Below are positions 58,000 to 60,719 of a DNA stretch of 64,000 bases, piece after piece; within the stretch, counting starts at the first letter, position 1; each line of letters starts with the position of its first letter. The translations under genes were made by a program, and so were the position numbers. The notes below the pieces were generated by a model, which saw only the letters and a list, made by a program, of their open reading frames with translations, made no database searches and was not told where the DNA came from. Where the stretch lies: positions 1 through 64,000 of the forward strand of contig NZ_BMCR01000006.1 in assembly GCF_014635285.1 (NCBI RefSeq). The letters run 5' to 3'. Origin of the DNA: Stappia taiwanensis (GTDB lineage Bacteria; Pseudomonadota; Alphaproteobacteria; Rhizobiales; Stappiaceae).

Positions 58000-58177
58000 C
58001 ATGCGCCTTCGTTCATGCGTGCGGCCGCGCGGTCGTGAGGCCGCGCGGCGATGGGGTCCTGCTTTAGCGTGCTTCGCCGGCGATGTCATGGCCTTGGGGA
58101 ACCGGGACCCTAGACGAATGGCGTTCTAGTGCTGGCCCGGCCCGGCGGGCATAGTAATGCGTGGAGGAGGAAAGCGC

Positions 58178-58576
58178 ATGACGGCACGGGTTCTGATTGT
58201 CGATGATGCGATAACCCTGACCGGGTTTCTCAAGGATCTGATCGAGCAAGACGGCTATCTGGTGGACACTGCCGATACCGCCGGGACGGCGCGTGCGGCG
58301 CTGAGTGCGCATCCGCCGGATATTGTCCTGCTGGATGCGGAACTGCCGGACGGCACCGGCTATGCCCTGTGCCAGTCGATGCGCGGCGATCCGCTGTCCC
58401 GGGAAATTCCGGTGGTGATGATGAGCGCCTGTTCGCGCGCCGTCGACATCGAGAAGGGGCAAGCCCTTGGTGCGGATGCTCATCTGGCCAAGCCTTTCAC
58501 CGCCTCGGAGCTGATGTCCGTGGTGGCGCGGCTGCTGACGGAGACGCCAGGGCTGGCGGGACGCGCGAATGCCTGA
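58178..58576 (+). CDS. Single-domain response regulator
   Basis: A 132-residue stand-alone receiver. RVLIVDDAITLTGFLKDLI holds the acidic pocket, Asp53 in IVLLDAELPDGTGYAL is the phospho-acceptor, MMSACSRAVDIEKGQALGAD carries the switch Ser and Lys105 is in HLAKPFTASEL. No output domain is present. Very strong ribosome site GGAGGAGG. Its last 8 bp overlap the exonuclease fusion gene, so the two are translationally coupled. No intact histidine kinase is adjacent. Confidence 0.92.
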   Translation: MTARVLIVDDAITLTGFLKDLIEQDGYLVDTADTAGTARAALSAHPPDIVLLDAELPDGTGYALCQSMRGDPLSREIPVVMMSACSRAVDIEKGQALGADAHLAKPFTASELMSVVARLLTETPGLAGRANA

Positions 58577-60719
58577 TGGCTGGGCCGAGCGCTGGAACCT
58601 GCGGCTGCGGTTTTTTCTGTTCTTCGCCTTGATCCTGCTCGGTACCTCGGCCAGCATTGCCGGTGCCATGATCTATCTTGCGGCAGCGGCGCCGCAGGTG
58701 CCGGTCAATGCCCTGGTGCTGGGTGGCGGTGTGGCGCTGTTCGCCAGCGCCGGGCTGACCTTGTGGGTCTGGCTGAAGTTCGACGACCATGTCGCCCAGC
58801 CCCTGATGAAACTGGGCGCGGAATTGCGCGCCAGTGTTCATGCCGGCACCCCGCGCGAAATCCCTCAGGACACCGGACGCTATCTCGGGCTGCTCGCGCC
58901 GGCCGTGCGGGAGGCGGCGGTGGCGCTGCTTGAGGCGCGGGCCGACGTGGAAGAGATGGTCGCCGTTGCCACCGCCGAAGCGGATCGGCAGAAGGGGCAA
59001 CTGGAAGCGGTGCTGCGCGATCTGCAGCAGGGGGTGGTGATCTGCACCCTCGATCACAAGGTTCTTCTGTACAATCGGTTTGCCCATCACCTGCTCGACC
59101 AGGGACGCAGTGGTCCGCTTGGGCTGGAGCGGCGATTGACAGGTCTGGTCGCCGGTCAGCCGCTGCGGCACAGTCTGGAGCGGCTGACGCGGCGCTTTTC
59201 CTCCGGCCGGTACCGCAGCCACAAGGACGGGCTGGCGGCCCAGTTCATCGGCACCACGGCTTGCGGCCACGAAAGCCTGCGCGGGCGCATGTCGCTGATC
59301 CTCGGCGAGGAAGAGCGCGAGGCGATCGGCTATGTGGTGACCTTCGACAAGGTGACCGACGAACTGGCCGCCGGGATCTGGCGCGACCGTCTGCTTCAGG
59401 ATGTGACCCGCGACATGCGTCAGCGGGTGGCGACGCTGTCCCTGTCGGGCGAGGTGCTGTTGCGCAAGGCGCCGATGGACGATGCGGCGCGGGAGCGGCT
59501 GCGCGAGACGGTCGACGTGGAAACCCGGGCTCTGGGGGAGCGGCTCGATCGGCTCGACCAGGTGGCGGGAGATCTTCTGGCCGGCGCCTGGCCGATGACG
59601 GAGGTTTATTCGTCCACGCTGATGGACTGTATCGCCGCGCGCCGCTCCGAGGGGCGGGAGCTGTCCGCCGTCGTGATGGGCGACCCGCTGTGGCTGTCTT
59701 GCGACAGTGCGACCGTGGTCGATCTGGTCGACAGGATGATGAATCGCATCAGCGTCTGGGCCCAGGTGCGTGACTTCCGCCTGTCGACCAGCCGGCGGGA
59801 GGGTACCGCCTATCTCGATCTGCTCTGGGCGGGAGAGCCGGTGCCCGAACCGGTGCTGGAAGGCTGGCTCGATGAGCCGCTGGAAGAGGCGCTGGGGGCA
59901 ATGACCGGTCGGGATGTGCTTAGCCGGCACAAGACCGATATGTGGAGCGACATCCTTGGCGGCGGGCAGGCTCGGCTTCGGCTGCCGCTGGCCGTGGCGG
60001 TGGAGCATCAGGACCGGCCGATGAAGTCCACCGCGCCGCTGGCGCCGCGACCGGAGTTCTACGATTTCGACCTGTTTGCCCGGCCGACACCGAGCACCAT
60101 CGGCGAGACGCTTTTGCGCAATCTGTCCTATGTGGTGTTCGACACGGAAACCACCGGGCTGGAACCGTCGCGCGGCGACGACCTCGTGTCGGTGGCCGGG
60201 GTGCGGATTGTCAATGACCGGGTGCTGCGCGGCGAGATCTTCGACGGTCTGGTCAACCCGGGCCGCCCGATCCCGCCGGCCTCGAGCCGGATTCACGGCA
60301 TCACCGATGACATGGTGGCGGAGGCGGATCCGGTGGAGCAGGTGTTGCCGCGCTTTTATGCCTTCATCGGCGACAGTGTGCTGGTGGCGCATAACGCGGC
60401 CTTTGACATGACCTTCCTGTCGAAATACCAGGAGCGCACCGGTCTGCGCTTCGAACAGCCGGTGCTGGATACGGTGCTGCTGGCCGGTCACATTTTCGGC
60501 GCCAGCGAAAGCCTCACCCTCGATGCGCTGGCCGAGCGGTTTGGCATCGTCATCCCCGTCGAGGATCGGCATACGGCGTTGGGGGACGCGCTGGCGACAG
60601 CGGAGGTCCTGCGCAAGCTGATCGCCCTGTTGACACCGCTTGGTGTCGTGACCTTGAGCGATGCGATCGAGGTCTCCAACCGGCAGGTCGCCTTGCGCCG
60701 GCGCCAGCGGCGCTATTGA
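58569..60719 (+). CDS. Membrane PAS-pseudokinase-DEDDh exonuclease fusion
   Basis: A 716-residue fusion. Two membrane helices (about 12-39 and 46-70) are followed by a HAMP-like/coiled segment and a PAS-like domain (about 145-265, VLRDLQQGVVICTLDHKVLL). A histidine-kinase-like dimerisation region (about 268-330) reads DVTRDMRQRVATL, with Arg281 where the phospho-His would be. A degenerate ATPase-like region (about 340-480) has no clear N-box. The C-terminal DnaQ/PolC-type exonuclease (about 520-690) keeps Asp525, Glu527 (FDTETTG), Asp613 (HNAAFD), His668 and Asp673 (RHTALGD). The nuclease should therefore be active while the kinase part should not. Annotated relatives are usually named DNA polymerase III epsilon, but this is not the replicative proofreader. 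Confidence 0.85.
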   Translation: MPDGWAERWNLRLRFFLFFALILLGTSASIAGAMIYLAAAAPQVPVNALVLGGGVALFASAGLTLWVWLKFDDHVAQPLMKLGAELRASVHAGTPREIPQDTGRYLGLLAPAVREAAVALLEARADVEEMVAVATAEADRQKGQLEAVLRDLQQGVVICTLDHKVLLYNRFAHHLLDQGRSGPLGLERRLTGLVAGQPLRHSLERLTRRFSSGRYRSHKDGLAAQFIGTTACGHESLRGRMSLILGEEEREAIGYVVTFDKVTDELAAGIWRDRLLQDVTRDMRQRVATLSLSGEVLLRKAPMDDAARERLRETVDVETRALGERLDRLDQVAGDLLAGAWPMTEVYSSTLMDCIAARRSEGRELSAVVMGDPLWLSCDSATVVDLVDRMMNRISVWAQVRDFRLSTSRREGTAYLDLLWAGEPVPEPVLEGWLDEPLEEALGAMTGRDVLSRHKTDMWSDILGGGQARLRLPLAVAVEHQDRPMKSTAPLAPRPEFYDFDLFARPTPSTIGETLLRNLSYVVFDTETTGLEPSRGDDLVSVAGVRIVNDRVLRGEIFDGLVNPGRPIPPASSRIHGITDDMVAEADPVEQVLPRFYAFIGDSVLVAHNAAFDMTFLSKYQERTGLRFEQPVLDTVLLAGHIFGASESLTLDALAERFGIVIPVEDRHTALGDALATAEVLRKLIALLTPLGVVTLSDAIEVSNRQVALRRRQRRY

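Follow-up and report, generated by a model that had tools for sequence, protein, structure and literature searches.

What could a membrane protein built like a sensor histidine kinase, apparently without kinase activity, do when its chain ends in an intact exonuclease? The question is raised by a gene in the first 64,000 nucleotides of contig NZ_BMCR01000006.1 of Stappia taiwanensis (assembly GCF_014635285.1), the whole stretch that was analyzed and is called the window here. The gene is an open reading frame (ORF) of 716 aa on the + strand (58569..60719, from the ATG to the end of the stop codon), and its codon-position GC of 0.72/0.46/0.83 is coding-like. The protein is laid out as two membrane helices, a PAS domain, a dimerization and histidine phosphotransfer (DHp) hairpin, a degenerate ATPase-like (catalytic and ATP-binding, CA) domain, and a complete DEDDh exonuclease. 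Together with the receiver gene overlapping its start (pair 58157-60719), it would form a system of a receiver and a membrane-anchored pseudo-histidine kinase with a DEDDh exonuclease as output. By analogy with phospho-DivK on DivL, we consider it rather probable that an SLC5 kinase phosphorylates the receiver, which then binds to the dead kinase and thereby gates the exonuclease. An initial annotation, made from the sequence alone, had proposed a signal-gated nuclease at the membrane; this is still the best reading, but the annotation missed the receiver gene, the partners that relatives have (an SLC5 kinase and DUF294), and the correlation between receiver and hairpin.

The kinase-like half and the exonuclease domain

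The initial relatives were the best 80 of 559 confirmed. The locus sample comprised 167 loci, obtained from 173 by removing six copies or near-copies (L005, L012, L013, L016, L017, and L020); L018 and L019, which were weak matches, were left unused, and loci from 19 genomes (13 phylum and 6 order matches), all with open frames of at least 645 aa, lie outside the sample. It holds 133 long and 34 short forms; the 34 carry neither DHp nor CA, and several of them are of a transmembrane (TM)-PAS-exonuclease type. Residue counts refer to an alignment of 87 long forms (more than 600 aa) that includes the window protein and omits L001, L002, L003, L012, and L020; statements on position 281 therefore apply to long forms only. 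The L020 protein, from Stappia indica, is 98% identical to the window protein.

With Pfam at its own cut-offs, the exonuclease was the sole match in the 716-aa protein, and the window protein's own kinase-part segment gave no Pfam match, falling below the thresholds. At an E-value of 0.01, 79 homologous segments matched 10 families, with PAS models in up to 46/79 and HisKA in 14/79, and HATPase_c was absent from the 10. A profile of residues 122-506 aligned with the VicK-like kinase 4i5s across PAS, DHp, and CA (E 1.1e-19) and with the pseudokinase DivL 4q20 (E 1.7e-7). The AlphaFold model of the same residues (mean pLDDT 86) shows a PAS domain, two long helices forming the hairpin, and a CA-like domain, and its top Foldseek matches were sensor kinases; the first 50 include WalK, VicK, ThkA-TrrA, NifL-NifA, and DivL. 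The global TM-scores were low (0.25-0.39 by query) because the domain orientations differ, and weight was put on the E-values and profile alignments. Profile, model, and structure search together rule out a chance resemblance to kinases, and the sensor-kinase architecture claimed by the initial annotation was thus confirmed. The PAS domain occupies residues 152-261 (59022..59351, +; N169 in 87/87), the DHp-like hairpin residues 263-336 (59355..59576, +; profile, models, and Foldseek), and the degenerate CA (HATPase-like) domain residues 344-476 (59598..59996, +; alignment, profile, and model). NifL (9qq6), one of the structural matches, likewise combines PAS with a histidine kinase-like core. 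It controls NifA without phosphotransfer, and it is not known to have a nuclease or a receiver partner.

Position 281 corresponds by alignment to the phospho-accepting His of the H-box, and in the window protein its codon (59409..59411, +) encodes Arg. None of the 87 long forms has His there, in agreement with the claim of a missing phospho-acceptor and ruling out that the His was lost in the window strain alone. The annotation had also raised the possibility that Arg281 is fixed among homologues. It is the absence of His that is fixed: Glu occurs in 53 sequences, Asp in 14, Arg in 6, Gln in 4, Val, Asn, and Met in 2 each, and Ser, Ile, Gly, and Thr in 1 each. A special role for Arg281 is therefore unsupported, Glu being commoner than Arg. 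The N-, G1-, and G2-box residues were unrecognizable in the alignment, as had been noted from the single sequence. Other positions are conserved, namely R284 (84/87), E318 (83/87), W433 (86/87), and H454 (87/87), and within the CA-like domain W420, G422, W433, H454, and R471 are each present in 80 to 87 of the sequences. Conserved residues without ATP boxes indicate that the CA-like domain is constrained, apparently not as an ATPase. The protein thus has the PAS-DHp-CA fold of an active histidine kinase and lacks the phospho-accepting His and the ATP boxes, and to judge from these sequences its kinase activity has probably been lost. Neither of the two outcomes that the annotation had named as contrary to its view, a middle part unlike kinase folds or homologues with a phospho-accepting His and an N-box, was found.

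The exonuclease domain spans residues 520-691 (60126..60641, +). It matches PF00929 (RNase_T) at residues 522-681 (E 1.1e-33), and its model superimposes on DNA polymerase III epsilon 2gui (TMt 0.84, rmsd 2.2). The active-site residues D525, E527, D613, H668, and D673, all proposed before, are each present in 87/87. The complete site predicts an active exonuclease, which would release nucleotides from a 3' end. The domain does not reach the cut-offs of the epsilon equivalog models TIGR01406 (113.8 bits versus 222.7) and PRK05711 (107.9 versus 196), although it passes the broad domain model TIGR00573 (95.4 versus 71.5 bits); we therefore rejected a replicative proofreader (DnaQ), as the annotation had done. 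Fold and complete DEDDh site are shared with the PF00929 members Pol III epsilon, RNase T, and oligoribonuclease, to which the Stappia protein adds the membrane anchor, the PAS domain, and the pseudo-kinase.

The predicted membrane helices are residues 11-40 and 46-68 (58599..58772, +; full-length AlphaFold model, mean pLDDT 85). The second extends to residue 92 in a part that appears HAMP-like by eye and has no Pfam match. Helices 11-40 and 46-92 are compatible with two membrane spans with about 5 residues between them, which leaves no periplasmic sensor domain. No SSF match was found in the 716-aa protein, and with two helices only it lacks the SLC5 transporter domain of the SLC5/STAC kinases. 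Directly before the exonuclease lies the linker motif RPEFYDFDL (residues 494-502; 60048..60074, +), which is nearly invariant (R494, D499, and F500 in 87/87, Y498 in 86/87) and has low model confidence (pLDDT about 40-46). Aligned short forms keep its R..YDF, and a role in docking or as a target of modification is possible.

The receiver gene and the DHp hairpin

The gene upstream (58157..58576, +) encodes a single-domain response regulator (RR), with PF00072 as its only match (E 2.2e-22), and its end overlaps the start of the exonuclease gene by 8 bases. In the 139-aa reading it has the acid pair D16/D17, the phospho-acceptor D60, S90, and K112; an alternative start at residue 8, as near relatives have, gives 132 aa. 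The phospho-acceptor Asp and the Lys are each present in 49/49 upstream receivers of relatives. An adjacent gene of this kind is the dedicated single-domain partner expected of a DivL-like sensor; DivK itself is a single-domain receiver. A receiver fused to the N-terminus of the longest ORFs (e.g., L026, 966 aa) was considered and rejected because no receiver match at E 1e-3 was found inside any exonuclease ORF; in 7 loci the exonuclease ORF has an over-extended start that runs into the receiver ORF.

Receiver and hairpin go together in the family. Relatives have DHp and CA, or CA with a degenerate or shortened hairpin, or neither (TM-PAS-exonuclease or shorter). A receiver on the same strand, at most 300 bases away or overlapping, was found in 104/124 loci of the first architecture, in 1/9 with CA and no match to the hairpin model, and in 0/34 with neither. 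It was upstream in 96 and downstream only in 2. When a full hairpin was defined by a PAS-CA distance of at least 68 residues, the receiver was present in 104/123 loci with it versus 1/44 without it, and six aligned receiver-less shortened forms have part of the hairpin deleted. A Pagel-type likelihood test on a tree of the exonuclease part favored dependent evolution (likelihood ratio [LR] 47.6, p 1e-9). With a threshold of 76 residues the counts were 98/117 versus 7/50 (LR 40.8, p 3e-8), and in a reduced set of 125 rows, from which eight long-branch rows and rows at least 85% identical to another had been dropped, 75/92 versus 1/33 (LR 31.3, p 2.6e-6). The receiver gene correlates with the DHp hairpin, which supports the hairpin as its docking element.

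The hairpins resemble those of SLC5 kinases: 75/79 exonuclease hairpins preferred an SLC5-kinase model (built from 60 hairpins) over a model of other kinases, with median scores of 48.4 versus 19.1 bits, the second model coming from a small set (22) whose best-scoring members are possibly truncated SLC5 kinases. Such a resemblance would be expected if the two kinds of hairpin shared one docking receiver.

Neighboring genes and distribution

Genes that recur around the long forms encode the receiver, in most cases directly upstream, a DUF294 protein, an SLC5 sensor kinase (about 910 aa), SSS symporters, DUF4212, and acetyl-CoA synthetase. Flank lengths vary among loci, so that neighbor counts are lower bounds, and gene calls were made by a simple script and contain errors. 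The SLC5 kinase occurs in the fetched stretches of 71/133 long-form and 1/34 short-form loci. The one protein scanned has intact HisKA and HATPase_c, and in the 850-960-aa proteins of its cluster the H-box His, N-box Asn, and G1/G2 Gly are kept in 42/42. DUF294 occurs in 76/133 long-form and 33/34 short-form loci. The DUF294 protein carries CBS and cyclic-nucleotide domains, and its nucleotidyltransferase residues G215, S216, D227, D229, and D310 are kept in 36/36 by column counts, against which a regular expression for the active site that matched 12/36 proved too strict. The gene set overlaps the regulons of the SLC5/STAC kinases CrbS/MxtR, CbrA, and RpuS, as described in the accessible portions of PMC5715377, PMC9100948, and PMC9927547; shared are the SLC5 kinase, SSS symporters, acs, and a cAMP-binding/CBS/nucleotidyltransferase protein. 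The same portions mention neither a membrane pseudo-kinase form nor a dedicated one-domain receiver. Together with the receiver, the often recurring acetate/pyruvate uptake neighbors suggest that the nuclease is controlled by nutrient signaling.

In the window genome the parts of this module are scattered and the receiver-exonuclease pair stands apart. An SLC5-kinase match lies at C3:698761-700788 (44%, within a 1342-aa frame), and close to it is a 720-aa fusion (L002) of a DEDDh exonuclease, a CBS pair, and DUF294. Contig 11 has a DUF294 gene among ORFs that resemble by eye a symporter, a DUF4212 protein, and an unnamed exonuclease-neighbor protein. Matches spanning exonuclease and DUF294 were found in 14/289 alphaproteobacterial genomes, with three candidates scored per genome; 3 of the 14 hold one stop in the span and are possibly adjacent genes. 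In Pseudomonas sagittaria, which also encodes a long membrane form (L070), a DUF294 match (C26:70220-70636) is followed on the same strand by an exonuclease match (C26:68973-69569, minus), beyond which lies a second, opposed DUF294 match; the first ATG of this exonuclease would give at most 239 aa.

Several smaller genes accompany these. A second exonuclease-like protein of about 221 aa near DUF294 (L071 12833-13498, one of 5 loci) reaches RNase_T only at E 0.042 and has DIA in place of the DxE of active enzymes; on this evidence it is possibly a dead exonuclease. Many alphaproteobacterial loci have, between DUF294 and the exonuclease gene, a protein family (about 165-190 aa; L050 4279-4791, L116 7248-7760) that begins with a hydrophobic stretch and gave no Pfam match; an ORF on contig 11 of the window genome is similar to it by eye. 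Beside the SLC5 kinase lies a small hydrophobic/membrane protein (L045 9939-10253; cluster in 40 loci) without a Pfam match above cut-off, possibly the counterpart of CbrX, which has been described upstream of CbrA. In L143, L155, L157, L162, and L163, DUF294 and the exonuclease gene are tail-to-tail, with 2-68 bases between the stops.

The initial annotation had placed such proteins in other alphaproteobacteria, where they do occur, but this is too narrow, as they are found in beta- and gammaproteobacteria too. Of the 167 loci, 79 were named: 27 are from beta-, 25 from gamma-, and 19 from alphaproteobacteria, 2 from Magnetococcia, 3 from unplaced Pseudomonadota, 2 from bins labeled Nitrospirota, and 1 from a bin labeled Desulfobulbia. 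A model of linker plus exonuclease, at E 1e-60 and with short forms counted, matched 25/386 alphaproteobacterial genomes, 52/397 genomes of the phylum, and 32/249 of the order. Within the window's genus, the N-terminal 516 residues had a close match (E < 1e-180) in 7/14 genomes, a weak one (8e-4) in 1, and none in 6.

Proposed gating and its alternatives

We propose that the kinase half phosphorylates nothing and would be retained for sensing. PAS and the DHp hairpin would perceive a cytoplasmic signal as well as the docked receiver, and the signal would be relayed via the CA-like domain and then the conserved linker to the exonuclease, whose activity would change. Phosphorylation of the receiver would fall to another, intact kinase: in many relatives the neighboring SLC5 (CrbS/CbrA-type) sensor kinase, and in the window genome, as the candidate, an SLC5 kinase encoded elsewhere in the chromosome. 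This module would serve the uptake and activation of acids of the acetate/pyruvate type. We infer the docking of the receiver on the pseudo-kinase, the direction of gating, and the identity of the receiver's kinase in the window genome.

The closest precedent is DivL of Caulobacter, which, according to PMC4211667, has a histidine kinase fold with PAS, a non-His phospho-site, and no need of kinase activity. It senses DivK~P, its catalytic domains being "repurposed as a phosphospecific RR input sensor" (PMC4211667). The exonuclease family likewise has a non-His residue at this site, which is mostly a fixed Tyr in DivL and varies here among Glu, Asp, Arg, and others; DivL controls other signaling proteins, whereas the exonuclease output is in the same chain here.

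Several points weigh against gating by a docked receiver. DivL keeps its N-, G1-, and G2-box motifs and its H-box apart from the His, whereas the CA boxes of the Stappia family are gone. The window genome has no SLC5 kinase or DUF294 beside the receiver-exonuclease pair, though both occur elsewhere in it. The 68-residue threshold was picked with the data in view, and the tree was a quick one with long branches. On its well-supported branches there are only 5 independent hairpin changes (sign test, p 0.0625), although the receiver changes in the same direction in 4.5 of the 5 on average and never in the opposite one; the reduced set has 3 independent pairs, none opposite (p 0.25). The receiver is not adjacent in 19/123 full-hairpin loci, some of which are at contig ends or have short flanks, and L200 combines a receiver with a shortened hairpin.

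Membrane-tethered RNA decay is an unlikely but coherent alternative. The exonuclease would trim specific mRNAs or short RNAs of carbon metabolism, with PAS as the sole sensor and the receiver modulating expression or localization. The domain is nearest to exonucleases of the DnaQ/PolC/RNase T type, and mRNA decay has been speculated for the RNase_T protein pp_0353 of Pseudomonas putida (PMC9927547). However, RNA decay leaves unexplained both the association of the receiver with the DHp hairpin and the repeated pairing and fusion with DUF294.

It seems decidedly speculative that DUF294 and the exonuclease act as writer and eraser. DUF294 would attach a nucleotide to a target protein, which might be the SSS symporter or its kinase, and the DEDDh exonuclease would remove it at a rate set by the receiver-bound pseudo-kinase. 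If this were true, a DEDDh exonuclease would be a de-nucleotidylating signaling enzyme. In 2002 Hamdan reportedly found that epsilon hydrolyzes the p-nitrophenyl ester of thymidine monophosphate; this ester resembles a tyrosyl-nucleoside monophosphate, so by analogy de-nucleotidylation may be chemically close. A nucleotidylating activity has been predicted for Pflu5625, which has cAMP-binding, CBS, and nucleotidyltransferase domains (PMC5715377). In P. putida, pp_0353 forms an operon with the CBS protein gene pp_0354 that is a target of MxtR/ErdR. Growth on pyruvate was harmed by loss of pp_0353 or actP-I and not by loss of pp_0354, and on 20 mM acetate neither pp_0353 nor pp_0354 mattered (PMC9927547). 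Harm from losing pp_0353 and none from losing pp_0354 is as expected if only a stuck modified state is harmful. The pp_0353 protein differs from the Stappia protein in being described as RNase_T without a secretion signal, a comparison by description (PMC9927547).

We find it improbable that DHp and CA are a vestigial dimerization scaffold and that the correlation with the receiver reflects shared operon history and joint loss. The small number of supported independent changes and the 34/167 loci without DHp and CA would fit such a history. However, 9 loci retain the CA-like domain with the hairpin missing or truncated, and 8 of these are receiver-less, which indicates that receiver loss tracks the docking element rather than one block deletion; the conservation of R284, E318, W433, and H454 also speaks against a vestige. 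A main role as sink or phosphatase for the receiver, with the exonuclease as an independent passenger, is very improbable, since the exonuclease site is invariant and aligned short forms keep the membrane part and the exonuclease without the hairpin, even though HisKA hairpins can function as phosphatases and the Arg three residues past the absent His is widely kept.

No description of a membrane pseudo-kinase exonuclease was recognized in the literature searched, the coverage of which was partial. If the receiver gates the exonuclease as proposed, its phosphorylation would exert direct, post-translational control over a nuclease by way of a dead kinase in the same chain; to our knowledge, no two-component output of this kind has been described. 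It would also give a testable role to the recurring, unexplained pair of a DnaQ-like exonuclease and a DUF294 nucleotidyltransferase, which is often found in acetate/pyruvate uptake modules and may underlie the unexplained pyruvate growth phenotype of P. putida.

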